A stretch of DNA of 64,000 nt. It comes from Thunnus maccoyii. Taxonomy: Eukaryota > Chordata > Actinopteri > Scombriformes > Scombridae. A program made the position numbers and the translations under genes. This document shows positions 8,575-49,904 of the stretch, piece after piece (positions within the stretch are counted from its first letter, which is position 1; each line of letters opens with the position of its first letter). Under the pieces are notes generated by a model. It was not told the DNA's origin and ran no database searches. It saw only the letters and a list, made by a program, of their open reading frames with translations. The stretch spans positions 19,529,791 to 19,593,790 of the forward strand of contig NC_056536.1 of assembly GCF_910596095.1 (NCBI RefSeq), in the 5' to 3' direction.

Positions 8575-10168
8575 AAATCCCTGATCTGTGTGTTCCCTTG
8601 TTAAAAAGTTGAAATGTTTAATTATAACAATCCTGGATAGAATGAAGAGTGTAAAAAGTAAGTTACTAATATGACTGTATGTGATGGTTTCTCTGCATCA
8701 TCTGGTCATTAATAGATTGATTTGTGTTTGAGTAGCTAACATAGACATGACAGTAAAAAGAGATTTGTTAGTTTGGTAGTTTATTTGTGTAATGTTACCC
8801 TGTCAGGAGGTGAGAAATCACTTTATTTGTACCATTTTACCATACTAAGTATCTATGCTTTTCATTATTCATATTGTCTGAGAGTTCATTTTCAAATGGA
8901 TCACCGAGTACCCAGACCCTGAAAGACATTTAGACAGCTAATGTAGACTAATGAGGTGCTTTTAAAAGCCCTTTTTTTTTTAAAGGGGAGGCCTAACATG
9001 CCTTTCCAGTGCTAATAGAAACTCTGGGATAGAAACCAGGTTTAAAAGAATTATTAATAATAATAAATTCAGAAGTGAGAAGCAGTTTTTCTCAGTAGCT
9101 AAAGCCACATGGTCAGAGTGAAACGTTCATTTTCAGTAGTGGACCACATAACTGGCTTATTTCTAATATTAAACGCTAATATCATGTGGCTAAATCATTC
9201 TAAACCTACTGAAATTGATTTCCGTAGGGTTCAATAGAGCTGAGAAAGTTGGAGAAACAATGATGAAGGCTTGTGGCCTAATCTGACAATATGCTGCCGG
9301 TACATCATGCAATTCTGCGATGCAAATCTCCCCTGAGTTTGATTTCTGTATGTAAATCTGAAGCTTGATTTCCCTGTGGACTCTTCCTGACTCATTTGAC
9401 TGCGAGATGTGATACAGTAACAGTAACAGTATTTGCTTCCCATAATTTGGTGCTTGAAAAAGTTAACCACAACACCTGTGTTTCTCTAAGGTTTCATACC
9501 TCTCTTTATATATTATTCTTTACTCTGCTCTTTTATTGTTTTCTTTTGTCCATTGTGTCTCGGCAATTGGTGACTGCATGAGTGAAAATCCTACACAGTA
9601 TCTGGAAGTTCTGGCAGATCACAGAACAAGGCAAGATAATTATCAAACATCACACTACAATTTCAGGGCTAGAGCTTGTAGCATAAATGACAAGCAAGGG
9701 TGAAAGATATCAGGACCAGTCAATGAACATTCACCACCACATAATCAACATTGTGCTTCTTTACCTCTCTAAAGTCCATTGTCAGTCTACAGCCAATGAT
9801 GATGAGAAAGGCTAGATAAAATGACAAGGATGTTTGCAGCATGAAATTAAGAAAGACTAGTTAGTTGTTCCTTCCACAGAACAGCATGTTTTCTTATGAG
9901 TCATAAATAGACTAGGTGTGTTATGTCCTATTTTGTTTTACCAGCTGCTTAATGATCCCATTTGCATTGTTTTGAATCCATTCATGTGTAGCTTTGGCTT
10001 CATGCTTGGGCTCATTGGGCCTCAAGCAAGTATATTTTATTATTGATATCCTAAATCTCTAGCTTTTTTCTGTGAGGTTTGTTCGTACAAATGTTCCACG
10101 TGATTCACCAAATCCCCTCAACTGCACAAATTTTCATAAATTGCTTTTGTCCTGATGAGTGCAACCTG
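8253..10168 (+). repeat. Large inverted repeat, left arm (block 2)
   Basis: Reverse complement of 13845-15784. Outer end is ACCTCAGTTTCAACC; inner end is near GAGTGCAACCTG. Arm length about 1.9 kb. Includes a LINE 3' end with a trinucleotide tail and an otherwise unidentified AT-rich segment. Confidence 0.88.
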
Positions 10169-10209: not shown

Positions 10210-12133
10210 TGTGATCACATGTGGGGACTGGCTCCCAAATAGTAATTGAGAGCAGCTGGGTGCATTCCCCTCTTGGCCAATCAGGGTGTGACGACGCCCT
10301 TTTTCTGGGGTTTAAGAGAGGAGAGAAACTGCACACCCTGGTCACTCTGTTCTTTCCTCAAGTGGTTACATTACATTACATTACATTACATTACATTACA
10401 TTACATTTAATTTTATTTCATTTCATTTCATTTCATTTAGCAGACGCTTTTATCCAAAGCGACGTACATCTGAGACTGATACAACACAAGCAAGGATCTA
10501 GTCAGGAGACAAAAACACGAGTAAGTGCCATAAAGCTTAAGTTTGGGCCTGGTAGGACGTAGATGCCAACAAGCAGTGCAAAAAGGCAATGATTAGAATG
10601 AATATAGTGCATAGAAGTTGTTTGTTTGTTTTTTTACCCTACAGTTCATCAAGTGAAGAAGTGTTCGCGAAAGAGCTTGGTCTTTAGTCTTTTCTTAAAG
10701 ATTGAGAGGGACTCTGCAGATCGAACAGAGTTTGGTAACTCGTTCCACCACCGGGGAACTACAGAGGAGAAGAGTCTAGCTAGTCACTTAGAGCCCTGTT
10801 GTGGTGGTGGTACCAGGTGCCTTTAAAGAGCGTAGTGGGCGGGAGGGAGTGTAGACCTGAATGAGGGAGTTCAGGTAGGCAGGAGCCATTTTAGTTGCTA
10901 TTTTGTAAGCAAGTCTCAGGGTTTTGAATTTGATGCGGGCAGCAACTGGGAGCCAGTGGAGGGATATCAACAGCGAGGTGACATGTGCTGTTTTGGGCTG
11001 ATTGAAGACCAGACGCGCTGCCGCGTTCTGGATCATCTGCAGAGGTTTAAGTGTACATGCAGGGAGGCCTGCCAGTGAGGAGTTGCAGTAGTCGATGCGT
11101 GATATAACGAGAGCCTGTACCAGGAGTTGGGCTGCATGCTCAGACAGGTAGGGTCTGATCTTTCTGATGTTGTACAAGGCGAATCGACATGATCGAGCGA
11201 CTGAGGTCACGTGAACCTTAAAGGTTAGTTGGTCATCAATCATGACACCCAAAGTTCGGGCAGACTTTGTGGGTTGATTCGAGCTGGATGCTGACATTTT
11301 GTTTATGGAAGGACTGGCTGGTATGACAAGGAGCTCGGTTTTAGAGAGGTTAAGCTGAAGGTGGCGTTCTTTCATCCATGCCGATATATCGGCAAGGCAT
11401 GAAGAGATCCTAGCGGAGACTGAGTGGTCTTCCAGGGAATGACAGGAAGAGCTGGGTATCATCAGCATAGCAGTGGTATGAGAAACCATGGGAGTGGATG
11501 ATTGCGCCAAGTGAGGTGGTGTATAATGAGAAAAGCAGGGGACCAAGCACTGAGCCTTGGGGAAGCCCTGTGGATAAGCTGTGCAGTTTGGACATTTCTC
11601 CAGTCCAAGATACTCTATAATATCTCCCTAACAGGTAGGACATGAACCAGCGGAGGGCGGATCCTGAGATACCGAGCTCAGTGAGTGTGGAGAGGAGGAG
11701 TTGGTGGTTAACTGTATCCAAGGCAGCTGACAGGTCCAGTAGCAAAAGGGCTGAGGATTGACCAGCAGCTCTAGCTGAGCGCAGTGATTCCATGACCGAC
11801 AGTAGTGCAGTCTCGGTAGAGTGACCCTGTTTAAAGCCAGACTGATTTGGGTCGTACAGGTTGTTGGCAGAGAGGATTTCAAAGACTTGATTAAAGACTG
11901 TGCGCTCAAGTACTTTTGACAGGAAGGGCAGGAGTGAGGTTGCAGACCTCATTTGTAGAGATTGTCAGACAGAACCGCTGGTCTGTTCAGGCCCCTTTGA
12001 GTCTTCTTTCTGGTCTTTTGCCTTTCTGATTTGAGGGTACCTTTGAGGAACACTACAAAATAAACCTTTCAACCAAGCGACCTGCTTTGGGTCTCTCTTA
12101 ATGCTTTGTGCAAGAGGTTGTGCTTGCCTCACA
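10210..12133 (+). mobile_element. Putative solo LTR interrupted by an L2 element (block 2)
   Basis: The two flanks of the L2 insertion (10210-10365 and about 11966-12133) read together like a retroelement LTR: begins TG (TGTGATCACATG), has CCAAT (GGCCAATCAGGG), a TATA-like GGGTTTAAGAG, a later AATAAA (12059-12064), and ends CA (TGCCTCACA). No internal retroviral genes and no clear target duplication. Could instead be an ordinary promoter fragment. Confidence 0.35.
10366..11965 (-). mobile_element. 5'-truncated L2-type LINE (block 2)
   Basis: Minus-strand RT. 11952-11410 contains SGFKQGHSTETALL, LLDLSAALDTVNHQLL, GLPQGSVLGPLLFSLY and the catalytic YADDTQLF. A frameshift near 11415-11440 moves the frame to 11546-10788 (ISAWMKERHLQLNLSKTELL, SRIDYCNSSLAGLP, LHWLPVAARIKFK). 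The 3' end on this strand is a (TGTAA)n tail (10366-10406), typical of fish L2. Non-autonomous now: 5' truncated and frameshifted. Confidence 0.88.
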
Positions 12134-13844: not shown

Positions 13845-15488
13845 CAGGTGGCACTCAACAGGACAAAACAAGCAGTTTATGAAATTTGTGCAGTTGAGGG
13901 GATTTGGTGAATCACGTGGAACAATTGTATGAGCAAACGTCACAGAAAAAGCAAGAGGTTTAGGATAGGAATAATTAAGTATACTTGCTTGAGGCTCAAT
14001 GAGCCCAAGCATGAAGCCAAAACTACACATGAATGGATTCAAAACAGTGTGGGATGGGATCAGTCATACCACACTCTCAGCTGGTAGAACAAAATAGAGG
14101 ATAACACACCTAGTTTATTTATTAATCATAAGAGTACCAGAAGAAAACACTGTTCTGTGAAAGGATCAACTAACTAGTCTTTCTTCATTTTATGCTGTAA
14201 ACATCCTCATCATTTTATCTAGCCTTCCTCATCATCATTGGTTGTAGACTGACACTGGACTTTAGAGAGGTAAATAAGCACAATGTTGATTATGGGGTGA
14301 TGAATGTTCATTCACTGGTCCTGTTATCTTTCACACTCCCTTGTCGTTTATCCAACAAGCTCTAGCCCTCACATTGTAGTGTGATGTTTGATAATTATCT
14401 TGCCTTGTTCTGTGATCTGCCAGAACTTCCAGATACTGTGTAGGATTTTCACTCATGCAGTCACCAATTGCCTAGACAAAATGGAAAAAGAACACAATAA
14501 AAGAGCATAGTAAAAAATAAGTTAAAGAGACTAAAGGGAGGTATGAAACCTTAGAGAAACACAGGTGTTGTGGTTAACTTTTTCAAGCACCAAATTATGG
14601 GAAGCAAATACTGTTACTGTTACTGTTACTGTATCACATCTCGCAGTCAAATGAGTCAGGAAGAGTCCGCAGGGAAATCAAGCTTCAGATTTACATACAG
14701 AAATCAAACTCAGGGGAGATTTGCATCGCAGAATTGCATGATGAACCGGCAGCATATTGTCAGATTAGGCCACAAGCCTTCATCATTGTTTCTCCAACTT
14801 TCTCAGCTCTATTGAACCCTACGGAAAACAATTTCAGTAGGTTTAGAATGATTTAGCCACATGATATTAGCGTTAAAGAGCGTAGTGGGCGGGAGGGAGT
14901 GTAGACCTGAATGAGGGGAACGTTTCACTCTGACCATGTGGCTTTAGCTACTGAGAAAAACTGCTTCTCACTTCTGAATTTATTATTATTAATAATTCTT
15001 TTAAACCTGGTTTCTATCCCAGAGTTTCTATTAGCACTGGAAAGGCATGTTAGGCCTCCCCTTTAAAAAAAAGGGCTGACAGCTTTTAAAAGCACCTCAT
15101 TAGTCTACATTAGCTGTCTAAATGTCTTTCAGGGTCTGGGTACTCGGTGATCCATTTCGGTGATCAGACAATATGAATAATGAAAAGCATAGATACTTAG
15201 TATGGTAAAATGGTACAAATAAAGTGATGTCTCACCTCCTGACAGGGTAACATTACACAAATAAACTACCAAACTAACAAATCTCTTTTTACTGTCATGT
15301 CTATGTTAGCTACTCAAACACAAATCAATCTATTAATGATCAGATGATGCAGAGAAACCATCACATACAGTCATATTAGTAACTTACTTTTTACACTCTT
15401 CATTCTATCCAGGATTGTTATAATTAAACATTTCAACTTTTTAACAAGGGAACACACAGATCAGGGATTTAACAACAACAACAACAAC

Positions 15489-15784: not shown

Positions 15785-16138
15785 CATCATCATTGGTTGT
15801 AGACTGACACTGGACTTTAGAGAGGTAAATAAGCACAATGTTGATTATGGGGTGATAAATGTTCATTCACTGGTCCTGTTATCTTTCACATTCCCTTGTC
15901 GTTTATCCAACAAGCTCTAGCCCTGACATTGTAGTGTGATGTTTGGTGATTATCTTGCCTTGTTCTGTGATCTGCCAGAACTTCCAGATACTATGTAGGA
16001 TTTTCACTCATGCAGTCACCAATTGCCTAGACAAAATGGAAAAAGAACACAATAAAAGAGCATAGTAAAAAATAAGTTAAAGAGACTAAAGGGGGTATGA
16101 AACCTTAAAGAAACACAAGTGTGTGGTTAACTTTTTCA
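15785..16138 (+). repeat. Third, directly repeated copy of an arm segment (block 2)
   Basis: About 350 bp (starting CATCATCATTGGTTGTAG) that duplicates 14230-14585 of the right arm and abuts the arm's outer end. The same sequence occurs inverted in the left arm at about 9453-9812. Confidence 0.85.
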
Positions 16139-16349: not shown

Positions 16350-16510
16350 TCAAATAATTTTTATACCGATGATGTAATATTATTCTTGTAGAACCTGGTG
16401 AATCACCTAATCAAGTCATTAAACATTTCAACTCCTCCTGTATCCAACTCAAAAACTGGAATAAATCTGGAATGAATAAACTAACTAAAATATCTGTTTA
16501 AATCAGAGAA
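16350..16510 (+). mobile_element. L1-like RT relic (block 2)
   Basis: Plus-strand frame reads FYTDDVILFL, close to the RT catalytic box FADDVILFL of fish L1 elements, then a stop and further L1-like spacing. Only a short decayed fragment. Block 3 counterpart is about 40037-40195. The rest of 16139-17040 holds nothing I recognise. Confidence 0.35.
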
Positions 16511-17042
16511 AAAATCATGATACAAGTTCAGTTTCAGGCAAGTTATGTCAGCAAATACATATTCAGTAAAGTAAAATCTTACACCCCTGAGATGTGGTAG
16601 TGGTGGAGTAGGTGATGAATCTGAAGCAATTTATATTTATAGTTTAAACATTTCCAGTGTCACAGAACTGAAAACGTTTTCACTTGACGAGACTGACATT
16701 GGTTATTATATTTCAATTTCAAGCGGTGTAGTTTTTCTCATTTGTGATTGTTGCTCAGACATGACGTAATTTTATTAAACAAATTCATCACTGTAGGCAA
16801 CAAGGTCTCCCAAAGTGAATTAAGATTATAGGTCCTTTCTTAAAAAAAAAACAGCAAAAAAAAAAAAAACAAGTGTCAGGGTGTCAGTAACAGCTGAGCT
16901 TATCAAATAAGAACGTTCTGTACTCAATTCAAATATGTGTCTTCTTTGACATCATGAGGAGAAATATCTTGTATATTATCTCATCCCTCCCCCTTTCCAT
17001 GAGTGGATCAAAATAATAGATATGACATGGACATTGTTTGAA

Positions 17043-17180
17043 ATGCAAATAAGCCATAGCTTGTTCATAAATAGCGAGAGCAGCAGGAGTAGAATGAAAA
17101 ATAAAACAAGTAGATGTTTTGAGATTATTTTAAGATATCAATCAACAAACTGAAAGAAAGACAGAGCTTCAGAATCTCAG
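17043..17180 (+). promoter_or_regulatory. Octamer+TATA promoter and untranslated first exon, copy 2
   Basis: An ATGCAAAT octamer (17043-17050) lies 16 bp upstream of a TATA-like CATAAATA (17066-17073). Transcription would then start near 17097, and the following sequence ends in CTCAG with a strong GTAAGG donor at 17181. A matching acceptor is TTGTCAG at 18121-18127, with a consensus-like branch site TGACTAAC about 24 nt upstream. This would join a 5'UTR exon to the exon with the copy 2 start codon. The arrangement repeats upstream of copy 3. Inferred from motifs; no RNA evidence. Confidence 0.5.
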
Positions 17181-17642
17181 GTAAGGTTTTAAAATGGTTT
17201 ACAGCAGACAGTTGATTTAAACAGAGTTACCTCCAGGTTTTATACATTTTTTTTTCTTGTAACAGCTATTGTAAAAATCTATCATATGTCAATTTTAAAT
17301 ATCAATTTTGGTCTCAGTTCTATAGTTATAATTCTTATGGTGTAACTTTCTTGTAAGAATCCATACATATAAAATACTTACCGGTTCCCACTAGTACTTA
17401 AATGTAGGTACAGTGGAAGAAAACAAGACAATGAGGAACAAGGGAGTAACATTTGGGGATTTAAAGTGTCACTTCCCGACATTTCCTGTGTAACTTACCA
17501 GAACTTAAGGTGTAATTTTGTCGTATGAATCAGTACGTATGTATATGTGCAATGAAATCAAATGTTTTTGCCCTGGTTATTTTTATGCATGTGTGTTTGG
17601 CAGGTAAGTTTCACCCACACTCCAGAGATTTATTATGCTTAT

Positions 17643-17684
17643 GTCTTTTACTTCATTGTATTCATATACAATGAAGTAAAAGAC
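17643..17684. repeat. Perfect 19-bp hairpin in leader intron, copy 2
   Basis: GTCTTTTACTTCATTGTAT and its exact reverse complement flank a 4-base TCAT loop. Lies 0.5 kb downstream of the untranslated exon. Confidence 0.85.
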
Positions 17685-18151
17685 AAAATTGTACTATATA
17701 AAACTTGAACAACAAAATATCTTAACTCTTAACTAATCTATTATCTTAACTAGGGAAACAAGATTCTACAAATGTTCATGGCAATCAAAATGTAGTTATA
17801 AAATGATTAATTATAGTAAAAAAAAAAGAAACTATGGAAACTATGTTTAAATTGTACAGTGTTTTGTGTTTTGCTGATTTTTCTTGTGAAATCCTAATGT
17901 ATTTTCAGTTTTTTTAATTGCTTTTCTAAAATGTTTTTGTTGTTCAATCAATTACAAAAGACTTCCTAAGAGGACAATGACCAATTTAATAGGTAGGAGA
18001 GAAACAAGAGGCAGGTGTTGTTCAAACGCTGGGTGTCTTTTGTGTATGTCTGCCCTTATCACCTCTAGTAGATATTATAATATATCATTATTTGAGTGAC
18101 TAACCTTCATAACCGACTGCTTGTCAGGTCAACAAGAACTGAAAACGTCGG

Positions 18152-18153
18152 AG
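18152..18153. other. Deletion junction that removed SAM exons from copy 2
   Basis: Sequence to 18152 (AAAACGTCGGA) matches copy 3 up to 41829. Sequence from 18153 (GAGGAAGATCACAG) matches copy 3 from 43241. The 1411 bp at 41830-43240, holding coding exons 1-3, is missing. There is no obvious microhomology at the join. Copies 3 and 4 both have the SAM exons, so deletion in copy 2 is the simplest reading. Confidence 0.9.
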
Positions 18154-18167
18154 AGGAAGATCACAGT

Positions 18168-21100
18168 ATGAAAGTAAGACAGTCTATTTTGCTGATCCCT
18201 TAGCAGAACTGGTTTTACTGGTGCTGTTTTGGATAATAATTTCCCTGGGTTTGTCTAATGTTTGTTCTTTTGTGTTCTGCAAGGTGTTCAATGATTCTAT
18301 CCATGGTCATATCAAGTTGCATCCGCTTCTCGTCAAAATCATTGACACACCTCAGTTCCAGAGACTACGAAACATCAAGCAGCTTGGAGGGGGTTATTTT
18401 GTTTTCCCTGGAGCATCCCACAACCGCTTTGAACACTCAATCGGGTATGTCCTTATGTTTTCAGATAGACACAGTTATGTGTCTTAAGGTATTCATTCAC
18501 AAGCCAAATAAAGGGACCACTGATTTGCAGTAAAGCATAAAATACAAACAATAAAACCAAAGTAAACTCATCGCATACCTTGGTAGAGGTACTGTATAAC
18601 AATTTGGGTTTTTTTTTTTGCTGCTGTATGTGCTGGTACAGGGTGGCATACTTAGCAGGACAGCTTGTACAAAATCTGAAAACAGAGCAGGAGGAACTCG
18701 ACATCGATGACAGAGACATCCTTTGTGTGCAGATTGCTGGACTTTGCCATGACCTCGGTGAGTGATACACACCTTTCCATTGTTACATGTAGTAGTTTTT
18801 TTTAAATAGTTTTGAATTGCAAGGTGTGCTTACGAACAAAAATAACATTAGTTTTATAACTGCTGTTATGGATGTCATCATTGACTCATTCAATAAAAAG
18901 CAACTTTGGGCTGCACTCTTTGTAGATCTGATGAATGTGTGCATTTCACAAGAGCACAAACCATTGATGTTCCCACACCTATCTATGCTCTAATTGACAC
19001 AGTACAGCACTCCTACAAAACTCATGTCAAACATCTCGCTCAAAAACTTAAAATTTAAACTGGTTTCTTGTACTGGAACAGAGGTTGTTTCTCTTTTCAA
19101 AGCAGAAAACAATCTACCATACTGTGCACATTGGATTATGGTGATATCCTGTATGCTCATGCTGCTGCCACCACCCTTTAACCTCTGGATACTATCTACC
19201 ACAGTGCCATTCCATTCATACAGCAGGCAGCTATCACACTCACCACCATGAGTTATATGAAAAGTTCAGATGATCATCACTGACATCCAGAAGGCACCTG
19301 AGTCTTCATTTATAAGACATTGATACCTAAATTACTGAGTAATTTAACATCTTTAGTTGAGAGCTAATAACCATGACACAAGGTCATGGCTCATTGGCTT
19401 TAAAAGTTCCTCACACAAACTCTGAATTGGGGAAGACTGGTTTCAGGTACTATGCACCTTATTACTGGAGTGAACTGCAAAACCGCTTGAAGTTAGAGAC
19501 ACTTGTTCCTCTGAGGGATTTTATTGCTGATATTATCATTATAGCTGATATTCTTCAGAATGTTTGTGATTGTTTCAAGTAGTGTGTCTGTCAGTGTGCA
19601 TGATGATTGTTTTGTGATTGTCATGTGAATGAACCATCTTATTCTGATCCTTTGTATATGTAACATGTTCTCAGGTCTCTGTTGCAAAAGAGATGTTAAT
19701 CTCAGTGAGATTTCCTGAATAAATAAAGCTAATAAAACTATCCACTAACATGGCAAACATTTTTGACTTGCAAAAGCAACTTGCTCAAAGTCAAGTTAAA
19801 AAAGTCTGCTGTTGGAAAGAGGAGCGAGAGAGGACAATTGTTTTAATATACAATAACAATACACACTTTCAGACAGTCTCTCTTGGAAGGCATTCATAGT
19901 GTTACTTGTCTGCACACACAAAGAGTGGCAGATTGTTGTGTAAAGAATGAAAAGAGAGACCTTGGCACCCTCATTTACTCATTCACTACTACATACTATA
20001 TAATACACTTAATAGTTTCTTCTGTAGTGAGTAGTGAATCATGATTTCAGACACTTATTCATCATCATTTTGAGTTGTCAGTGACAAGTTATTTTCAACG
20101 GTAATTTTCCCATCTATAAAATGCAGAGCAGAGAGGCAGAAATAACGTCACTTTGCTGATTTTAATCATTTTGTTCATATTAGCTCAAAGATTCATACTC
20201 ACTGAGTATGTAGTTGTTGACTTTTTGTCTAACATATGCAACTGCATCAATGTTCAAATGCACTTCCAGTGCTTATAACAGTAAGTGAACATACCACTAT
20301 TCATACTGCTGTGACCTTCAGCGCTCATTCTGAAGGTCTTCTGTTCATTCAGTGGTACATTCAGTCTGTTATTGGTTCAAAACTAAACTACTAAACTATG
20401 TTTAGTTCAGTACAAAACTAGGCCTATACAAGAACAATTTATAAGCTTAAGAGCTCAATAATCTACTACAAATAACACAATCATTAACTTATATTTATTT
20501 TATCAACATCTAGGACATGGACCCTTTTCTCATCTGTTTGATGGAATGTTCATCCCCAAAGTACGTCCAGATCTGAAGTGGAAGGTAAGAAACAATTAAA
20601 CTTTTTCTGTTGCGTGTGATAAGAATATAACCAACTACAAAAATAAATCATACATTGAAAAAACACAGCCACAGACAGAAATACCAATCTCTATACTACT
20701 ACCACTGTTTATATGCTAAAAACAAAACTACATCCAGCAGCCAGCTCGTTGGAGGAATGATTACAGCAAGCAAAACCTCTTTCAATGTACATTTGGTCAC
20801 ATGACTATTAACAACCCTTTAACAACATCTTTTGGTGCCTTGGTGTTTGTATTTGCACAGATAATATGATTATCTGTCTAAATAATACAGTAAGAAGGGC
20901 ACAAAGTTATCACTGCCAGTTCAGCAGTGTAGTAATGTCCACCAACATGACAAAAGAAATATGTGCATGTCTGTTTCTCTTAAAATAAACAGTTTGACAA
21001 CCATCAACACAGATCCATCAAACTTAATTTTTTAAAGTTGTTGTTCAGACACTCAATTCAGGTCACCTGAGGAGTGAGGAGACATGACAACAAGGTAATA

Positions 21101-24100
21101 ACAAGCATCTCTGGTCCACCACCAAGCCACTTTGTCAGTTTTACTGCATCACTTCCTTGCAAATTTGCCCTCATTTGCATAAAAATGAAATTTTTCAACT
21201 TTCGACCTGCTTTGTGAAGCGATTTGCTTGTGTCCCATAGAAAATAAATGTGGGGTGAATGTCATGTCGCACCACCTTCACTTATCAAATGCCACTGATA
21301 TCACTATTCACCTGCTTTTAGTGCCATCACACATTACTAATCACATGTGATCTACAAGAACTATCAATATGGCTGTAATTAGTATAGTTAATGGGTTGGG
21401 GAGTCAATGGTGGTTTTCCAGCTTGAGGCATGTTTTCGAATTGTTTTATTGATTTGAGTCCAGTAGTCCAATCTATCCCTCTATTTTTTGAGTTTATTAT
21501 TAATTATTATTCAAATTATGCAACTTTTATTTTCAATGTTTCTTTTATTTACAGAACTATTTTAACATAATGACTGTAGGCTTTTTTGTACTTTTGTAAC
21601 CTAGTGAATTTATATAGGTAATACATTTGCTCCACTGTGAGCTGGACAGCTAAAGGTTATTGATTCATTCCTTGCATGGGTTATAGCTTTTCACTGTTTT
21701 CATGATTTGAGTTTAGTAGTCCAATCTCTCCCCTTTTTCAGTCACAATATGTAATTATGCAAACACTTTTCTTTCATTTCAAAAGTTAATTTTCAGGTAA
21801 GCAGTTAATGTGTAAAGTTCACCAGTGTTTAACCTGCTGTTAAACTAATTAAATCAGTTTTGTAAAATAATCTTCATTGTGTCATTCACAATAACTGTCA
21901 CGTCACTGTGACATGTCCTCAGTTCAATGGCTTTCATAACCAAAGAGTCCTCCATCTCCTCCTCCTCTCACTCTCAAGTCTTGGGGTTTGGACACTGGGC
22001 GTCTTTCCCACCTCCAGAGGTGGAGGACTCTTTTAGTGAGAGAGCCACACTGAATGACACACTGAATATTATTTTACTAAACTGATTTAATTAAAGTTTA
22101 ACAGCAAGTTAAACACAGGTGAACTCTCATTTTACAAATGTCTGACACACATTTAACAGCTTACAGTACAACAAACAAAAAACTACAGTCATTATGTTAA
22201 AATAGCCCTGAAAATGAAACATTGGTGGAAAAAAGTCTTTGCATAATTTTATAGTGTAACTCAAAAAAGGATATATTGGGCTACTATTGAGCTATTCACA
22301 TATAGTGACACTATTTCTTGTGTTCTTTCACCTTGAAACAGCGAGTGTGTATTATCACATTAATAGCCTATATGAATATGTCTTAATGTGTGTATGTTGC
22401 AGCATGAGACTGCCTCTCTACAGATGTTTACCCACCTGGTGGATGATAATGGTCTGAAGCCAGTGATGGAGCACCACGGCCTGAAGCTGAATGTGGACCT
22501 GGACTTCATCAAAGAGATGATTGCAGGACATCAGGAAACTAATGCAGTTCAAGGCCAGAAGGTACCTGCCAGTGTGAAATTGTGTGTAATCAGTCAGTAT
22601 CCTTTTACAGCAGCCAATGTCTGATACCATTATTGTGCCATCATCTTCACAGTGGCCGTATAAAGGCCGACCAGAGGACAAGTCCTTCCTCTATGAAATC
22701 GTGGCCAACAAAAGAAATGGCATTGATGTGGACAAGTTTGACTACTTTGCCAGGTGAGGTTTGCTAAACAGCAACTGTAGGATAATTAACTTTTTCCCTT
22801 TAGAGTTATGAACTACAATGTTATTTAATTACTACAATTACATTATCCTCATGATTATTTTAACAATGTTTGGCATTCCCCAGCATAGTATTGTTGTTTT
22901 AACTTAATAGGCTCATCTTCACATTTTCAGGGACTGCCACCACCTGGGCATCCAGAACAACTTTGACCATCAACGCTTCATCATTTTTGCCAGGGTGTGT
23001 GATGTGGAAGGACAGAAGCACATCTGTGTTAGAGACAAGGTGCTGAAACTTTTACTGCTGCTTTTTTTAAAATCAGATTTTTTAAAAAGCAAAATAGCAA
23101 AGATGAATTGTGACTAAACTAAAAGCGATACTCTCAACAGGAGGTGGGCAATCTGTATGACATGTTCTACACAAGGATCAGTCTCCACAGAAGAGCCTAC
23201 CAGCACAGAGTGAACAAGATCATAGAAGCTATGTGAGTACCTACCCATCCCATGTTGGTACTCAACATGTCAACAACATGTCGCTTGGTCTCCTGTCTGA
23301 TGAGGAGCTTATTTACTTTGCTTCATGATTTACCCTTTTGTATAGCATGCAGCAAAATGTTCTCAAAAGTGACAATATGTTGTTGTGTTTATCAAGGATC
23401 ACAGAGGCCTTTGTAAGTGCAGATGGGCACATCTGGATTACAAACAAAGATGAGGAGGAGTTCACTCTCTCCACAGCCATAGATAACATGGAGGCCTACA
23501 CCAAGCTGACAGGTTTGTAGAGATCACTGTGTGCTATTAGCTTATGTTTTTAGAACATCAAGAGAAAAGAAAAAGAGCACCACCTTTATAATGTTTAAAA
23601 AAATACTACATACACATCTTTTAAAACATGCAACATTGTCAGACTGCTGTCAGTATTATTCTTATTTTGAAGACTCTGAAGTACTTTAAGGAATATCAGT
23701 GCTGGATGATCAGTTACAGCACACAAAGAGACAAAATATTACAACTGTGGCAGAAACATCCTATCATATGCATACTGGCTGCTGAGGAATTATGAATCAA
23801 AATCTATGCTATAGATATCTACAGCAAGACTCCAATTATCCACTTGCATTGACCACAAGTTCAGACTAACTTACTTACTAAGCATTTTAGCTTTAGTTAC
23901 AACAATATCATCTTAGCTTGCTAGTTAACAACTAATTATAAACTAACACAAACACATGGATGAATTGTATTTCTGACAAATGATCTAAATAATATCACCC
24001 TGATGGCTTCAGTCTCGCTGCTCTAAAAGGTCATCTTCAATACAATCCATGTAGAAGACATTGAAATAAAGAAAGCTCATTGTTTTTGAGTTGTAGCATA

Positions 24101-24784
24101 GAGCTAGTTAGTCCTTAAGTATGATAAGAAAAAATGTAAGATCAGACGGTTGTCTTGGTCTAAAATAACCCTTTTTAGCTAACATACTAACAGTAACAAT
24201 AATTCTAACAGTGAACAACAACAACAAAAACATAACCCAACAAGATAACGTAGTTAGCTAATGCAATGCTCTTTGGCCAAGGAAGTAACCATAGATATTT
24301 ACACTCTTGATGCCATATTCCAGGTTGTGGGCTGTGTCTCAGTTGCCATCATATTTATCCGGTTTTCTGGTCACTATCTGCAGAAAAGGATACCAGAATT
24401 TTGTGCTGCATTTTGATTTTCTAAAGAAAGAAATTCCAAAATTGAGGCACAAGGAATAATTTCATGGGCGAGTAATTATTACAAAACACTGTCACAAACA
24501 TGTTGAATTTAATATGCCGTTATCACTAAAAAGCAATTTTAAGTGGTTATTAGTCTTTGTAGTAGGACTTTCTATTGAGAATTTTTGAGTGAATAGAATT
24601 TGTAGGTTCCATTTATTATTATTATTTACTATTACATTAATTGACAACCTGGATATAGCCACATGTACACACAGAAGCCAACCAGTGTCCAGCTGTTCAT
24701 GTTGTTCATACACAAACATGCATCCCAAAACTCAAAATCAATTACTGTATGCATAAGTTACGTAAATACTGAGGGAAATGTCAG

Positions 24785-24863
<79 letters not shown>

Positions 24864-27800
24864 AATATGACTATTAAAACAAAATGCTATGCATGCTATG
24901 GTATATTTGACATGCACTGACATTTTTAATAGTTATAACTATTTAAAATGTATTCAGTCTCTATTCTGTATTCTTTAATGATCCTACTAGCCATACAGCA
25001 CTGCAAGATGAAAACATACTATATTTCTAAAATAATTACAAAAAGTAGGCTCAACTTTAATTTATTATAGTAATATTAGTCTACTCTGCATTAAATAGAA
25101 GTACTTTGCTATGAAAACCATCATTTCGGATAAACAAAGTATTCTGTATTACACATAAATGTCTAGTATTCTGTGACAACCCAAACTGCTGAAAAACGGA
25201 TTTATTGATTGACAATTCAGTGAGTTATGGTAGCTGTAAGAGCGGCTGGACCTCTTTCCACAATATACTTATATGCATTCAGAGAGGCAACTAGACCAAC
25301 CAATATGGTGTCCGCGTTGGACGCATTGATACAATGACTAGCAGCATCCAGTGTGGCATCTACGTGTATCTATAAGAAGATTACAACTGTAGGTAGTAAG
25401 CTAGTTAGCCAGACATGCTAACGATTGCAGTTGGAGCAGATAAACACACTGTTTAATCCATTCATTACACTTTTGCTCGTGTTTTTGGTTTTGTAAGGGC
25501 TAAATAAAAAGAAACCACCCTCCAAAGAGCATCACTCTTACTATAGCACCATGTACATCGCTACAGCATGTGGAGAAATCCAAAGCTTAACAAACAAAGT
25601 GTAGCAACTATTCAGTGGAGGGAAACAGTAAATGGTCACTGGAGAGTAGAAGCAACTTGCTGAAGTTTCAACGGCATATTTTTAAAATGAAAAATGATTA
25701 CCCCAGATCCTGTAAATTAAAGAGTTGTAATGAGTACAGATTGAGCCGCCTGCTTTTTTTTTCACATTTAAGAACAAATGAATGTTTATAACATAGTTAT
25801 ATAGCTTAGTTTTGTGAGTTATGCCTCTCAGTTTACTGTCAATTATTTATTTGAGAAACGCTACAAATTAATTTGTGACCTTGACTTTGGTTTGTTTTAA
25901 CTGACCGAACTTCTGCTCTGTTTCTCTGTTTGTCCTGTAGATTCTGTGTTTGACGAAATACTCAAGTCCTCCTCCCCAGAGCTGGCTGAGGCGAGGAAGA
26001 TTCTGGAAAGAATCTATTCTCGACAACTCTACAAGTTTCTGGGCCAAACAAAGGCTCTGCAAAAGAAGAAAATAAGAAATGATGAAAGATACATTGATGT
26101 CACCAAGGTGTTCACCACATCTTTGTGTACCTGTACTGGATTACACTTCTGCTTGATGTGGACTAAAACACAGCCTATTCCAGTCACTCCTAGAATTGAA
26201 TTTAGAGGATGTGATAGCATTGTCCACAAAATTATAGGGTCAAATGTCACTTGTCACACTACTAATGCCATGTCTACACAGAGAATATTTCCGCTGCATT
26301 TTCTATTTTCCTCGGGTTAAAATAAAAGTGTATCTGTTCCATCAGACGATGGACGACTGAAAAACATGGTTGAAACACCTTCAGTGTTGACATGATGTAA
26401 GTCAATTGAAAACATTTTTTTGTGAGAAAATCATTTGCATCCAGCATTTCAAGGTTGAGGCCTTTTGCCCATAGTGAAACATTGGTAAAACTGCAAAATC
26501 TCTTCTTCTTTATCGTCTTTTCAGTTGGCAAACAACAAAATTGTGCATCACAGCCAATATCTTGTAAGGAGTGGGAGAGACAGTCCAGTTGACCAAATCA
26601 TGATCATTATTTTATGGTTGCAGCATTGTCTGACAAAATTAAACATAAATACAGGTTAATGATTGGGCTGTAGTACTCAAGTCTGGTCTCCATCTCAAGC
26701 TGTTTACTGGGATCTTGAACTAACAGTGTTTGACGGAACAGTTATTTCATACTGAAATGATTTAATCATGGCTCATAAATATTCTGTGTAGCCGCTGTGG
26801 CTCAAGAGGTAGAGCAAGTCTGGGATTAATTCCCAGACTCTTCCTGTCGATACATGTTAACATGTACACATCATTCTCAAGGTGTAATGTTGATAAAATA
26901 ATTATTTTATGAAAGCAACATCATCTGGCAAAATCAACCTAAGTATATATTAATGTGGACGTGCTCTTAACTGTTTGCTTTCAAGATAAAATGAGTCAAA
27001 TCTATTGTCCTTCATACTTTTCTCCTCTCTCCCTTAGGAGATAATTTCCACTTGGAAAAAGGAACTGGCTCAAGCCCTCCCTCAGACTGATGCTCAGGAC
27101 GGGCTCAAGCCAGAGGACTTTGAAATTATTGTAAGTTTTCAAGTCTAATTACTTTCACTTCAATTTTCTTCAAATATTGGGTTTTGTTGATTATTATTTG
27201 ATTTGTATCATGTTGCCTACCTCCGTTGTGGCATAATTTAATTTAATTGCCAAATTTTAAAAACAGGCTTGTCTCTCATCCTTCTCTTTTAGAAAGTCAC
27301 TATGAACTATGGGAAGAGAGACCAGAATCCTGTTAATGATGTATATTTCTACAGCAAAAATGATCATACTAGAGCTTTCAACATCCCTCAAAAACAGGTT
27401 GGATATAAAGCACTGACAGCAAGAATTTGAATCCTCTGTTTGTTCCTTGTGTGTTCATTCATTTTTCTTAAATGTATGCTACTGTCTTTCCTGTCAGATG
27501 TCTGAGCTGCGCCCAACATGCTTTTCTGAGACGCTGATCATGGTTTACTGCAAGAGGACCGATGACAACAGTCTGGAGGCTGCCAAGAACCACTTTCTCC
27601 AGTGGTGCAGAAACAAGGGCTTTCAGGTAATATTTAGATGTTAAAAAGCATAGAAATGTCAAAGGCTGCAGTGTATTAGTAACGGCAGTGTCAGCTGACA
27701 GAAAGTTACCCATTAACACAATAGCCAGGTGCCTACTGGAACAATGAATCAGGTTTTGTAATCCCTGTTCATTCTGACCGATAGAAGATCCCAAATGTGC

Positions 27801-28102
27801 TTCTAATGACAAGTCAAGTCAATTTTATTTATAAAGCACATTTAAAAACATTCTGTGTTTATAAATTTCATTTCATGTGCAGGAAATGGTGTATGCATGG
27901 TTTTTGTGTGTATGCATTGTTTATGCATCTGACCTCCAGAGTATACAGTAGTCGACTGTATCAAAAAGGTCCAATAACATTAAAACAGCAACGTTTCCAC
28001 CATCTAAGGACAGCAGTAAGTTATTTGTTAACCTTAGCAGAGCGGACTCAGTACTGTGGTGCATCCTGAAATCTGACTGGAATTTGTCTAAAATGTTGTT
28101 CC

Positions 28103-28135
<33 letters not shown>

Positions 28136-29061
28136 CTTTTTCCAGAGATTTTCAGAGAGAACACAATTTGGAGATTGGGTGGAAGTTATTAAGTGTAGTT
28201 GGATCTAATTTGTATTTTTATTAGAGGTTGAATGACAGCATGCTTGAAAGAGAGTGGGACATAACCATTAACTAGGGATGAGTTTATTATGGATAAAATA
28301 CTGGCCCCAACTGTATCAAACATTTGCTTAAGAAGATGAGGTGGAATTATAACCAGCGGGCAAGTAGTGGGATTCAGCCGTGAAATAATGAGGGAGGAAA
28401 GTAAGAGAAATGGGTTCAAAATGATTAAAAATTGCAGGTTGTTTGATTAAATCAGAGGGATCATGGAAACGGGTTAAGACGTGAGACCTTATAATGTCAA
28501 TTTTATTGATAAAGAATTGTAAGAAATTTGCACAGGTTTCAGGAGATGCCTCTTTTTTAATTTTTTAAAATGATGTCTGAAAAATATTTTACTCTTTAAG
28601 CCTTAACACCACCCTAAGATTTGGGATTTTGGTTGAGGTGTGAGGAGGCAAAAACAATGGGCCTACGGTCTGATAAAACGCCACAGTATTAAAAGATCAG
28701 ATTTTGCTACTGAAATAGACAATAGATCAGAAAATTCAGAGATAAAAGTATTCTTTAATTTATGAGGTCTGTAAATGAATGCACAGGGTACTGGACTTGA
28801 CATGTCAATCCTGCACAGTAGCAATTCAAAGGTTAGATATTTTTCATAATAACAGAGGACAAAATCCTCAGTCCTCATTTTGAGCAAATATGTAAAAGTT
28901 CTATCACTCTCTGACCTTGGATCTGTTGTTAGTGCAGTCTATAGTGCCCTGGCTCAGTTGTGATGAACTGCATCTCTCTGAGTGCACTCTGCACTGCTCT
29001 TGTTAATACTGATGCATTTGTCCTTGTTCTCTTCAAATAGGACTCTACAGTAGGACTGTAG
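18168..29061 (+). CDS. samhd1: SAMHD1 paralogue, copy 2, lacking the SAM domain
   Basis: Proposed coding exons: 18168-18173, 18284-18444, 18642-18757, 20514-20584, 22403-22561, 22653-22753, 22931-23039, 23141-23232, 23397-23512, 25941-26107, 27038-27130, 27293-27397, 27498-27626, 29041-29061. They sum to 481 codons with no frame break. The HD core is intact: R164/H167 (NRFEH), H206/D207/H210/H215 ([11 protein letters not shown]), D311-D319 in exon 8. The allosteric GTP site is also intact: N119, D137, Q142, R145. The three SAM-domain exons found in copies 3 and 4 are deleted. The start is the tiny exon ATG AAA followed by a GTAAGA donor; phase 0 splicing gives MKVFND, placing Lys at the position of human K116. 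Kozak -3 is A. The acceptor before exon 11 is CAAG instead of CCAG. Terminal exon is DSTVGL then stop. The start exon is inferred from sequence and needs RNA support; the HD exons are certain. Confidence 0.85.
18990..19738 (+). mobile_element. LINE relic in intron 5, copy 2
   Basis: The plus-strand frame [16 protein letters not shown] (about 19131-19178) matches the conserved C-terminal RT segment of Rex/L2-type fish LINEs. The segment ends in a 3'UTR-like AAGAGATGTTAATCTCAGTG and a TAAATAAAGCTAATAAAAC tail. Many stops; inactive. Confidence 0.65.
19740..20513. other. Intron 5 remainder, copy 2
   Basis: No gene or recognisable element seen. The block 3 equivalent (44827-45540) has lost about 70 bp near 45249. 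Confidence 0.5.
21440..21745 (+). repeat. Short direct repeat in intron 6, copy 2
   Basis: TTGATTTGAGTCCAGTAGTCC followed by AATCT.TCCC recurs about 260 bp later with few changes (21442-21490 and 21697-21742). It recurs in copy 3 at 46468-46765. Confidence 0.55.
21811..22136. mobile_element. MITE-like foldback element in intron 6, copy 2
   Basis: 326 bp whose ends are long imperfect inverted repeats (about 115 bp; TGTAAAGTTCACC... against ...GGTGAACTCTCATTTTACA). Candidate AATG target duplication on both sides (21807-21810, 22137-22140). A TIR-type non-autonomous DNA transposon is the likely class. Its position-1 counterpart ends exactly at the window's left edge. Confidence 0.6.
24791..24861 (+). 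repeat. (GT)n microsatellite, intron 11, copy 2
   Basis: About 35 GT units. Copy 1 has only about 9 units at the matching site (2554-2572). Confidence 0.95.
26791..26850 (+). mobile_element. Truncated tRNA-derived SINE, copy 2 intron 12
   Basis: Same SINE insertion as in copy 1, but only the tRNA-like head remains (GCCGCTGTGGCTCAAGAGG...). The tail was lost by deletion into ACATGTTAACATG. Confidence 0.6.
27803..28640 (-). mobile_element. LINE relic in intron 15, copy 2
   Basis: Orthologous to the intron 15 relic of copy 1; RT fragment on the minus strand at 28419-28189. Contains a poly(A) run at 28108-28135 where copies 1 and 3 have a purine-rich AAGAAG tract, and a 66-bp deletion near 28553. 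Confidence 0.6.
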
Positions 29062-32243: not shown

Positions 32244-33852
32244 AAATCCCTGATCTGTGTGTTCCCTTGTTAAAAAGTTGAAATGTTTAATTATAACAAT
32301 CCTGGATAGAATGAAGAGTGTAAAAAGTAAGTTACTAATATGACTGTATGTGATGGTTTCTCTGCATCATCTGGTCATTAATAGATTGATTTGTGTTTGA
32401 GTAGCTAACATAGACATGACAGTAAAAAGAGATTTGTTAGTTTGGTAGTTTATTTGTGTAATGTTACCCTGTCAGGAGGTGAGACATCACTTTATTTGTA
32501 CCATTTTACCATACTAAGTATCTATGCTTTTCATTATTCATATTGTCTGAGAGTTCATTTTCAAATGGATCACCGAGTACCCAGACCCTGAAAGACATTT
32601 AGACAGCTAATGTAGACTAATGAGGTGCTTTTAAAAGCTGTCAGCCCTTTTTTTTAAAGGGGAGGCCTAACATGCCTTTCCAGTGCTAATAGAAACTCTG
32701 GGATAGAAACCAGGTTTAAAAGAATTATTAATAATAATAAATTCAGAAGTGAGAAGCAGTTTTTCTCAGTAGCTAAAGCCACATGGTCAGAGTGAAACGT
32801 TCATTTTCAGTAGTGGACCACATAACTGGCTTATTTCTAATATTAAACGCTAATATCATGTGGCTAAATCATTCTAAACCTACTGAAATTGTTTTCCGTA
32901 GGGTTCAATAGAGCTGAGAAAGTTGGAGAAACAATGATGAAGGCTTGTGGCCTAATCTGACAGTATGCTGCCGGTTCATCATGCAATTCTGCGATGCAAA
33001 TCTCCCCTGAGTTTGATTTCTGTATGTAAATCTGAAGCTTGATTTCCCTGCGGACTCTTCCTGACTCATTTGACTGCGAGATGTGATACAGTAACAGTAA
33101 CAGTATTTGCTTCCCATAATTTGGTGCTTGAAAAAGTTAACCACAACACCTGTGTTTCTCTAAGGTTTCATACCTCTCTTTACTCTCCTTAACTTATTCT
33201 TTACTCTGCTCTTTTATTGTTTTCTTTTGTCCATTGTGTCTCGGCAATTGGTGACTGCATGAGTGAAAATCCTACACAGTATCTGGAAGTTCTGGCAGAT
33301 CACAGAACAAGGCAAGATAATTATCAAACATCACACTACAATTTCAGGGCTAGAGCTTGTAGCATAAATGACAAGCAAGGGTGAAAGATATCAGGACCAG
33401 TCAATGAACATTCACCACCACATAATCAACATTGTGCTTCTTTACCTCTCTAAAGTCCATTGTCAGTCTACAGCCAATGATGATGAGAAAGGCTAGATAA
33501 AATGACAAGGATGTTTGCAGCATGAAATTAAGAAAGACTAGTTAGTTGTTCCTTCCACAGAACAGCATGTTTTCTTATGAGTCATAAATAGACTAGGTGT
33601 GTTATGTCCTGTTTTGTTTTACCAGCTGCTTAATGATCCCATTTGCATTGTTTTGAATCCATTCATGTGTAGCTTTGGCTTCATGCTTGGGCTCATTGGG
33701 CCTCAAGCAAGTATATTTTATTATTGATATCCTAAATCTCTAGCTTTTTTCTGTGAGTTTTGTTCGTACAAATGTTCCACGTGATTCACCAAATCCCCTC
33801 AACTGCACAAATTTTCATAAATTGCTTTTTTTGTCCTGATGAGTGCAACCTG
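31918..33852 (+). repeat. Large inverted repeat, left arm (block 3)
   Basis: Duplicate of the block 2 left arm, pairing with 37530-39451. Confidence 0.88.
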
Positions 33853-33893: not shown

Positions 33894-35816
33894 TGTGATC
33901 ACGTGTGGGGACTGGCTCCCAAATAGTAATTGAGAGCAGCTGGGTGCATTCCCCTCTTGGCCAATCAGGGTGTGACGACGCCCTTTTTCTGGGGTTTAAG
34001 AGAGGAGAGAAACTGCACACCCTGGTCACTCTGTTCTTTCCTCAAGTGGTTACATTACATTACATTACATTACATTACATTACATTACATTACATTACAT
34101 TTAATTTTATTTTATTTCATTTCATTTCATTTAGCAGATGCTTTTATCCAAAGCGACGTACATCTGAGACTGATACAACACAAGCAAGGATCTAGTCAGG
34201 AGACAAAAACACGAGTAAGTGCCATAAAGCTTAAGTTTGGGCCTGGTAGGACGTAGATGCCAACAAGCAGTGCAAAAAGGCAATGATTAGAATGAATATA
34301 GTGCATAGAAGTTGTTTGTTTGTTTTTTTACCCTACAGTTCATCAAGTGAAGAAGTGTTCGCGAAAGAGCTTGGTCTTTAGTCTTTTCTTAAAGATTGAG
34401 AGGGACTCTGCAGATCGAACAGAGTTTGGTAACTCGTTCCACCACCGGGGAACTACAGAGGAGAAGAGTCTAGCTAGTAACTTAGAGCCCTGTTGTGGTG
34501 GTGGTACCAGGTGCCTTTAAAGAGCGTAGTGGGCGGGAGGGAGTGTAGACCTGAATGAGGGAGTTCAGGTAGGCAGGAGCCATTTTAGTTGCTATTTTGT
34601 AAGCAAGTCTCAGGGTTTTGAATTTGATGCGGGCAGCAACTGGGAGCCAGTGGAGGGATATCAACAGCGGGGTGACATGTGCTGTTTTGGGCTGATTGAA
34701 GACCAGACGCGCTGCCGCGTTCTGGATCATCTGCAGAGGTTTAAGTGTACATGCAGGGAGGCCTGCCAGTGAGGAGTTGAAGTAGTCGATGCGTGATATA
34801 ACGAGAGCCTGTACCAGGAGTTGGGCTGCATGCTCAGACAGGTAGGGTCTGATCTTTCTGATGTTGTACAAGGCGAATCGACATGATCGAGCGACTGAGG
34901 TCACGTGAACCTTAAAGGTTAGTTGGTCATCAATCATGACACCCAAAGTTCGGGCAGACTTTGTGGGTTGATTCGAGCTGGATGCTGACATTTTGTTGTA
35001 TGGAAGGACTGGCTGGTATGACAAGGAGCTCGGTTTTAGAGAGGTTAAGCTGAAGGTGGCGTTCTTTCATCCATGCCGATATATCGGCAAGGAATGAAGA
35101 GATCCTAGCGGAGACTGAGTGGTCTTCCAGGGAATGACAGGAAGAGCTGGGTATCATCAGCATAGCAGTGGTATGAGAAACCATGGGAGTGGATGATTGC
35201 GCCAAGTGAGGTGGTGTATAATGAGAAAAGCAGGGGACCAAGCACTGAGCCTTGGGGAAGCCCTGTGGATAAGCTGTGCAGTTTGGACATTTCTCCAGTC
35301 CAAGATACTCTATAATATCTCCCTAACAGGTAGGACATGAACCAGCGGAGGGCGGATCCTGAGATACCGAGCTCAGTGAGTGTGGAGAGGAGGAGTTGGT
35401 GGTTAACTGTATCCAAGGCAGCTGACAGGTCCAGTAACAAAAGGGCTGAGGATTGACCAGCAGCTCTAGCTGAGCGCAGTGATTCCATGACCGACAGTAG
35501 TGCAGTCTCGGTAGAGTGACCCTGTTTAAAGCCAGACTGATTTGGGTCGTACAGGTTGTTGGCAGAGAGGATTTCAAAGACTGTGCGCTCAAGTACTTTT
35601 GACAGGAAGGGCAGGAGTGAGGTTGCAGACCTCATTTGTAGAGATTGTCAGACAGAACCGCTGGTCTGTTCAGGCCCCTTTGAGTCTTCTTTCTGGTCTT
35701 TTGCCTTTCTGATTTGAGGGTACCTTTGAGGAACACTACAAAATAAACCTTTCAACCAAGTGACCTGCATTGGGTCTCTCTTAATGCTTTGTGCAAGAGG
35801 TTGTGCTTGCCTCACA
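33894..35816 (+). mobile_element. Putative solo LTR interrupted by an L2 element (block 3)
   Basis: Duplicate of the block 2 structure: TG at 33894, CCAAT and TATA-like motifs before 34050, AATAAA and terminal CA after the L2 insertion. Same uncertainty. Confidence 0.35.
34050..35650 (-). mobile_element. 5'-truncated L2-type LINE (block 3)
   Basis: Same insertion as in block 2, with the same catalytic YADDTQLF and same frameshift, plus a private 1-base indel near 34997 that breaks the second frame and a 12-bp deletion near 35580. The shared frameshift predates the block duplication. Confidence 0.88.
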
Positions 35817-39451: not shown

Positions 39452-39805
39452 CATCATCATTGGTTGTAGACTGACACTGGACTTTAGAGAGGTAAATAAG
39501 CACAATGTTGATTATGGGGTGATGAATGTTCATTGACTGGTCCTGTTATCTTTCACACTCCCTTGTCGTTTATCCAACAAGCTCTAGCCCTGACATTGTA
39601 GTGTGATGTTTGGTGATTATCTTGCCTTGTTCTGTGATCTGCCAGAACTTCCAGATACTGTGTAGGATTTTCACTCATGCAGTCACCAATTGCCTAGACA
39701 AAATGGAAAAAGAACACAATAAAAGAGCATAGTAAAAAATAAGTTAAAGAGACTAAAGGGGGTATGAAACCTTAAAGAAACACAAGTGTGTGGTTAACTT
39801 TTTCA
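39452..39805 (+). repeat. Third, directly repeated copy of an arm segment (block 3)
   Basis: Equivalent of 15785-16138; duplicates 37917-38270 of the block 3 right arm. Confidence 0.85.
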
Positions 39806-40726: not shown

Positions 40727-40864
40727 ATGCAAATAAGCCATAGCTTGTTCATAAATAGCGAGAGCAGCAGGAGTAGAATGAAAAATAAAACAAGTAGATG
40801 TTTTGAGATTATTTTAAGATATCAATCAACAAACTGAAAGAAAGACAGAGCTTCAGAATCTCAG
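40727..40864 (+). promoter_or_regulatory. Octamer+TATA promoter and untranslated first exon, copy 3
   Basis: Same layout as upstream of copy 2: octamer 40727-40734, CATAAATA at 40750-40757, donor GTAAGG at 40865, acceptor TTGTCAG ending at 41814. The downstream exon here carries the SAM-domain start codon at 41882. Between donor and acceptor the 950-bp leader intron contains a conserved hairpin (41320-41361). Confidence 0.5.
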
Positions 40865-41319: not shown

Positions 41320-41361
41320 GTCTTTTACTTCATTGTATTCATATACAATGAAGTAAAAGAC
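41320..41361. repeat. Perfect 19-bp hairpin in leader intron, copy 3
   Basis: Same hairpin as at 17643-17684, unchanged in both arms and loop. Confidence 0.85.

Positions 41362-49817: not shown

Positions 49818-49904
<87 letters not shown>

Follow-up and report, generated by a model that had tools for sequence, protein, structure and literature searches.

Exact loss of the SAM exons from one copy of a tandem SAMHD1-like array in Thunnus maccoyii, with a candidate two-codon start exon

SAM-less forms of the antiviral-type enzyme SAMHD1 have been described both as laboratory constructs and as natural proteins. The human HD fragment is more active than the full-length protein, with the SAM domain dispensable (PMC5788916), and human 115-626 forms tetramers with deoxyguanosine triphosphate (dGTP) (PMC4592219). 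Activity is also known from a SAM-less fungal enzyme (PMC12042053), and Caenorhabditis elegans ZK177.8, a natural HD-only SAMHD1 ortholog of 567 amino acids, is a dGTP-activated, tetrameric deoxynucleoside triphosphate (dNTP) triphosphohydrolase (dNTPase) (PMC10485159). K116, Q142, R145, R451 and R333, R352, K354, N358 are listed as allosteric residues (PMC11074143). In zebrafish, two samhd1 paralogs on chromosome 1, LOC793232 and si:ch211-233g6.2, are annotated without SAM and match each other at 94% and the full-length samhd1 on chromosome 23 at 58% and 57% (PMC12062899). Here, we describe a SAM-less SAMHD1-like gene copy of the tuna Thunnus maccoyii, located in a 64-kb stretch of contig NC_056536.1 (the window) that holds a tandem array of four such copies, all on the plus strand (Table 1). 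An earlier sequence-only reading had proposed that a deletion in copy 2 removed the SAM domain and created a new Met-Lys start exon.

Copy 2 is without exactly 1,411 bp that copy 3 has; two collinear BLASTN blocks end at 18152/41829 and resume at 18153/43241, and the proposed clean deletion is exact to the base. Identity between the copies is 98.97% (1,654 columns) and 98.8% (848 columns) on the two sides of the junction. There is no microhomology: C follows 41829 and T precedes 43241, and neither fits the junction. A join at which the two ends have no base in common fits the expectation for blunt end joining. Copies 2 and 3 differ at 18078 and 18114 to the left of the join (nearest 38 bases off) and at 18187, 18195, 18201 and 18264 to the right (nearest 34 bases off), which makes a simple misassembly unlikely. 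Pfam SAM_2 matches were found in copy 3 (E 2.5e-13) and copy 4 (E 6.2e-12), and the SAM domain of SAMHD1 was absent from copy 2 in matches up to E 0.1. Because copy 4 also has the SAM exons, copy 2 carries the derived state. The loss of the domain looks real, recent and well preserved, and the SAM-less paralog young.

The deletion had been read as fusing the 5' untranslated side of exon 1 to intron 3. The intron 3 side stands, but the left break falls within former coding exon 1, as alignment with copy 4 brings out. Detectable homology between copies 3 and 4 begins at 41774/58920 and extends across the copy 4 start codon (58958), where copy 3, like copy 2, has GTCAACAAGAAC and copy 4 has GTCAACATGGAC (ATG to AAG). 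With AAG at the old start, the ancestral initiation codon and the MDSRKRP... segment were already gone from copies 2 and 3; the first Met before SAM in copy 3 is at 41882, a later start than that of copy 4 (41774-41881 compared with 58920-58990). On this alignment the N-terminus is lost stepwise, a segment like a nuclear localization signal (NLS) first and SAM next in copy 2. The KRP of the copy 4 N-terminus also starts the human NLS, which is of the KRPR type; copy 4 has KRP but E instead of the final R, and copy 2 has no signal of this type.

To the right of the join, ATGAAA|GTAAGA occupies 18168-18179. Human SAMHD1, aligned to copy 2 with splicing allowed, gave ...EDHSMK|VFND (the same run set two spurious upstream pieces where SAM is missing). 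By phmmer against PDB chains, residue 1 of the predicted protein falls on residue 115 of chain 7ujn_A (626 residues), and chain 8gb1_A has MKVIND at the position of MKVFND in copy 2. The proposed frame, with a phase-0 donor and Lys116 restored, is supported, Met1-Lys2 aligning with human 115-116. The donor after 18173 scores 3.7 and ranks 61st of the 4082 GT sites in the window; all donor and acceptor scores were computed with a simple base-frequency matrix. The string ATGAAAGTAAGA occurs twice on the plus strand of the window (18168 and 43256) and nowhere on the other strand. In copy 3, intron 3 reads AAAAATGAGGAAGATCACAGTATGAAAGTAAGA, with two ATGs, the first of which (43239-43241) opens a short, out-of-frame reading that stops at a TGA overlapping the second. 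Since the deletion takes the first two bases of that ATG, ATGAAA at 18168 is the first ATG after 18046. Seventeen of the 354 right breakpoints within intron 3 would leave ATGAAA as the first ATG, and from 154 (1.7%) of 9,000 starting positions spread over the window, the first downstream ATG is in frame to an equal or better phase-0 donor, 21 of the 154 being this site itself or its copy 3 twin. The arrangement is uncommon, yet well within reach of one lucky deletion or of selection among deletions. Retention of the intron instead of splicing was rejected: read upstream from exon 4, the frame stays open as far as 18143 but encodes no Met.

The predicted copy 2 frame has 14 exons and 481 codons, no stop, and GT-AG at every intron; the boundaries of exon 13 and the last exon were set by hand after automatic alignment. 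The HD core is present (phmmer E 1e-191 to 7ujn_A, query 1-475 on 115-579; Pfam HD 5.1e-10), and 288 of 471 aligned residues are identical to human. All 18 active-site positions are kept (H167, H206, D207, D311 and neighbours), as are 19 of 20 allosteric A1 and A2 positions, the exception being a conservative K377R also found in copy 3; on these residue lists, 37 of 38 catalytic and allosteric residues are unchanged. In copies 1, 2 and 3 the stop falls near human residue 585, a few residues past the 579 equivalent, and the C-terminal region with T592 (584-626) is missing. The last residues are VGDTVGL-stop in copies 1 and 3, versus DSTVGL in copy 2, whose last exon has a different acceptor (aaatag) with the same stop still in frame. 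With an HD core and no SAM, copy 2 is of the same kind as the SAM-less fish samhd1 paralogs.

We give about an even chance to the explanation, taken as a whole, that copy 2 is a recently formed SAMHD1 paralog, SAM-less through deletion of the SAM exons and used as an HD-only enzyme. The sequence itself shows a blunt deletion of the end-joining type, which took from copy 2 the SAM exons retained in copies 3 and 4. What was left of exon 1 on the 5' side was fused to intron 3 shortly before a pre-existing ATGAAA|GTAAGA, and the out-of-frame ATG was destroyed, with an intact predicted HD-only frame and its catalytic and allosteric residues as the outcome. The deletion would have followed the duplication that separated copies 2 and 3. 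Transcription would still come from the old 5' promoter or leader, the new donor would be spliced to exon 4, and translation would start at Met115-Lys116. The product would be a GTP/dNTP-binding dNTPase without SAM, NLS-like segment or C-terminal tail. By analogy with the described enzymes, it is expected to be a weak to moderate dNTPase, probably weaker or less stably tetrameric than human HD and more like human 115-583; it is probably also more cytoplasmic. In favour of an enzyme, HD-only SAMHD1 works in C. elegans (PMC10485159). We regard as rather doubtful the further step that one recent deletion made a minimal HD-only dNTPase from a three-part protein at a stroke, its break removing SAM, cutting an interfering ATG and uncovering an intronic codon pair and donor that recreate Met115-Lys116, in a copy that would be used and retained beside its SAM-bearing sister, free of control through SAM, NLS and tail.

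Several points weigh against use of copy 2 as an enzyme. Mouse HD alone is nearly inactive and insufficient, with poor tetramer formation (PMC5788916). Because copies 1 to 3 stop near 585, the closer human comparator of copy 2 is 115-583, which forms no stable tetramer in solution and has a kcat of 0.15 versus 1.3 per second (about 10-fold lower), while thymidine triphosphate is still hydrolysed with a similar KM and crystals hold tetramers (PMC4592219). The active human HD fragment, to which the sequence-only reading had appealed, is thus weakened as a precedent; the loss of SAM and the HD-only frame stand, and the step to an active enzyme is only partly supported. In the HD part, copies 2 and 3 differ by 34.5 nonsynonymous and 6.5 synonymous changes, a nonsynonymous-to-synonymous rate ratio (dN/dS) of 1.5 that is compatible with relaxed constraint, and at an intron divergence of 180/9,182 (~2%) an open frame is weak evidence of use. 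The new donor (AAA|gtaaga) is predicted to be only moderate, and upstream donor-like sites would permit other in-frame starts.

The same dN/dS of 1.5 and barely diverged introns would suit a decaying pseudogene, its start and SAM exons deleted and its open HD frame the leftover of a young copy, as would 20.5 nonsynonymous to 4.5 synonymous changes on the copy 2 side over exons 7 onward (7.0 to 2.0 for copy 3; 2 codons ambiguous) and a start that relies on a moderate donor, intronic elsewhere. We hold this somewhat unlikely. Predicted splice sites and frame are intact, and coding indels are all multiples of 3 (2/2 between copies 2 and 3, 4/4 between copies 2 and 1; introns 3/21 and 8/34), a count that is favoured by exon ends drawn by hand with the frame in mind; they are also somewhat fewer than the intron rate predicts (2 versus 3.2 against copy 3, 4 versus 6.4 against copy 1). 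Changes on the copy 2 side tend to spare the sites conserved in human (7 of 20 fall there, background 283 of 468 conserved, P 0.017), and no such avoidance was found in copy 3 (8 of 12, P 0.75). These signals of constraint, which also count in favour of the preferred explanation, may partly predate the deletion. Fast change is, moreover, typical of the array, since copies 1 and 3 have a dN/dS of 0.86 over exons 7 onward with open frames (copies 2 and 1, 1.01). Differences between copies 2 and 3 are unevenly spread: 17 of the 159 bases of exon 7 are changed (22403-22561 versus 47428-47586) and 0-6 bases in the other exons, and the introns flanking exon 7 differ by 0.7% and 2.2%. This pattern suggests that exon 7 was converted by a copy not seen here, or underwent focused change or selection. 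Copy 3 exon 6 (45541-45608) is 3 bases shorter than that of copy 2 (LKW to PW), and copy 3 exon 8 (47678-47778) has WLYKG for WPYKG; from these changes, copy 3 may be the less constrained copy.

Copy 2 could also be HD-only with another start, a first exon ending at donor 17603 being spliced to 18128 or 18284 to give a short non-SAM N-terminus, with Met-Lys internal or skipped; copy 3 could skip SAM alike. The two best distinct donor-like sites among the 4082 GT sites, 17603 and 17180, lie within 1.2 kb 5' of the join and tie only with their copy 3 twins, 41280 and 40864. ATGs at 17539 and 17545 are in frame to exon 4 via 18128, and those at 17562 and 17589 directly to 18284. We judge this alternative improbable: earlier ATGs (17525, 17552 and others) precede some of the candidates, the acceptor-like site at 18128 is weak (score 0.2, rank 612 of 4227), in copy 3 the exon 1 acceptor would put none of the 7 ATGs lying up to 80 bases from the twin donor in frame with SAM, and skipping the Met-Lys exon would replace Lys116 by Gln. 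A leader spliced at 18128 would yield a chimeric exon of 46 bases, part exon 1 and part intron 3. As read from the frames, the copy 2 protein would be SAM-less with every alternative start listed. Copy 3 has ATGs at 41239 and 41266 (donor 41280) that would reach exon 4 likewise, a possible SAM-skipping isoform (41239-41280; copy 2, 17562-17603).

Upstream of 41774, copy 3 has no detectable homology to copy 4, so the promoter of copies 2 and 3 is new or unrecognisable. A candidate is marked by the octamer ATGCAAAT (shuffle mean 0.1) and the TATA-like ATAAATAG (shuffle mean 0.08). The octamer starts 24 bases 5' of the TATA-like start (17043-17075, also from 40727 on), and an octamer followed by TATA is the layout of immunoglobulin promoters. 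Interferon-type motifs in 16501-18160 were unconvincing (one GAAANNGAAA, shuffle mean 0.28; two matches to the interferon-stimulated response element with at most one mismatch, mean 1.2), and gamma-activated sequence motifs numbered zero there (shuffle mean 1.4). The 5' flanks of copies 2 and 3 (16501-18152 versus 40183-41829) mismatch at 8 of 1,645 positions (0.49%), versus 1.96% in introns; this low divergence suggests later conversion of the promoter region.

Copy 3 carries the same ATGAAA|GTAAGA, as it would if the ancestral gene already used the Met-Lys mini-exon as an alternative first exon, which the deletion then made constitutive. We rate this very improbable. Four SAMHD1-derived intergenic fragments, which start in intron 2 or exon 3 and reach exon 4, match copy 3 at ~61% identity, and none of the 4 has a GT donor at the Met-Lys site (ATTAAGA, ATGAAGA); shorter SAMHD1-derived pieces at 15826-16080 and 39493-39747 (69-71% to copy 3) do not align at that site. 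Two fragments have ATGAAA without the donor. Homologous intron fragments without a donor mark ATGAAA as old intron sequence, as the sequence-only reading had it (intron 3 "happens to read" this string), the donor being seen in copies 2 and 3 only. A copy 4 counterpart, ATGAAAG..TAAG (~60628), was rejected as not significant, being matched by 22 of 1000 and 54 of 300 shuffles. In copy 3, the part of intron 3 around Met-Lys is similar to the last part of exon 3 (score 18.5, reached by 0 of 1000 and 1 of 1500 shuffles); descent from an ancient exon duplication was rejected, as fragment 9509-9961 gives nothing (252 of 500 shuffles) and copy 4 is weak (11 of 150). Both orientations of the SAMHD1-derived intergenic fragments overlap long inverted repeats.

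That the join is an assembly artefact of a near-identical tandem array has the slimmest chance, for although the copies are ~98-99% alike, assemblers usually misjoin at shared sequence, and here the join shares no base and lies 38 and 34 bases from the nearest copy 3 differences.

Within the array, copies 2 and 3 align in long BLASTN blocks, one of 11.6 kb (97.9% identity) and one of 8.2 kb (98.0%). The blocks that copy 1 shares with these two copies are shorter and mostly 94-96% identical (one block pair, 85%), and copy 4 is distant, with three pieces that match copy 3 at 64-74%. Each intergenic unit has one UnaL2-type 3' element of a long interspersed nuclear element (10427-10480 and 34121-34174, both minus strand) and reverse transcriptase frames (11410-11964 and 35105-35647, both minus strand).

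Table 1. Features of the SAMHD1-like array, in positions of the 64-kb window
Feature	Position	Strand	Remark
Copy 1, 3' part only	267-6063	+	Exons 7 onward
SAMHD1-derived intergenic fragment	9509-9961	+	Intron 2 end to exon 4 start; Met-Lys site ATGAAATTAAGA; twin 33117-33642
Inverted SAMHD1-derived fragment	14078-14597	-	Met-Lys site ATAAAATGAAGA; twin 37763-38282
Candidate promoter and leader exon	17043-17180	+	Octamer ATGCAAAT 17043; TATA-like ATAAATAG 17067; donor-like TCTCAG|gtaagg after 17180
Candidate alternative first exon	17539-17603	+	Donor-like TGGCAG|gtaagt after 17603; ATGs 17539, 17545, 17562, 17589
Copy 2	18128-29061	+	
Candidate chimeric exon	18128-18173	+	Exon 1 remnant 18128-18152, intron 3 piece 18153-18173; would need a 5' leader spliced at cag|GTCAAC
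Deletion junction	18152-18153	+	Copy 3 equivalent 41829|43241
Predicted start ATGAAA	18168-18173	+	Sole two codons of first coding exon, equivalent to Met115-Lys116; followed by donor gtaaga
Predicted intron 1 of copy 2	18174-18283	+	Former 3' part of intron 3
Exon 4 equivalent (VFND...)	18284-18444	+	161/161 bases same as copy 3
Exon 5	18642-18757	+	HD (H206-D207 equivalents); spliced alignment
Exon 6	20514-20584	+	Spliced alignment
Exon 7	22403-22561	+	17/159 bases mismatch copy 3
Exon 8	22653-22753	+	Spliced alignment
Exon 9	22931-23039	+	Spliced alignment
Exon 10	23141-23232	+	Spliced alignment
Exon 11	23397-23512	+	Spliced alignment
Exon 12	25941-26107	+	Spliced alignment
Exon 13	27038-27130	+	Start moved by hand from 27062 to better acceptor ctctcccttag
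Exon 14	27293-27397	+	Spliced alignment
Exon 15	27498-27626	+	Spliced alignment
Last exon (DSTVGL-stop)	29041-29061	+	Picked by eye from homology, not by spliced alignment
Segment missing from copy 2	41830-43240	+	In copy 3; exons 1-3 (41882-41978, 42621-42687, 42945-43017), SAM domain
Copy 3	41882-54032	+	
ATGAAAGTAAGA in intron 3 of copy 3	43256-43267	+	
Copy 4, 5' part	58958 to beyond window	+	3' end outside window
Copy 4 exons 1-6	58958-62015	+	MDSRKRP..., SAM and HD start; comparison polarising the deletion

The observation of the sequence-only reading is thus confirmed exactly and its interpretation supported in part. SAM-less SAMHD1 genes are known as a kind; what is new is an origin that can be traced from a sister copy. 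No such deletion or start exon was described in the SAMHD1 literature on fish, duplication, tandem arrays and paralogs, as represented by titles and abstract openings and few subscription papers. Loss of SAM is usually obscured by time, but in this case a single 64-kb window contains ancestral sequence, break and intact sister copy together, so that domain loss and the birth of a start codon can be read base by base. Copies 2 and 3 also form a natural test of the role of the SAM domain, on which the published human and mouse enzymes disagree.

If the further step of a minimal dNTPase made at a stroke and retained is true, copy 2 is a natural replicate of the laboratory core construct. The human truncations 115-626 and 115-583 share its first residue, and 115-583 also its approximate end, but they were made in the laboratory, whereas copy 2 is a natural gene copy. 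The mouse HD fragment, likewise with SAM removed, is nearly inactive and warns against assuming activity for copy 2. ZK177.8 is an HD-only SAMHD1 as copy 2 is predicted to be (phmmer E 1.3e-55 to PDB 6pwy), but it belongs to a distant lineage, and the excerpt of its description gives no sign of a recent deletion origin. The zebrafish paralogs are annotated as SAM-less fish SAMHD1 duplicates and form a close pair beside a more distant full-length gene, like the copies here; they are reported on another chromosome than that gene. Unlike them, copy 2 has its SAM-bearing sister and the exact deletion in the same array.

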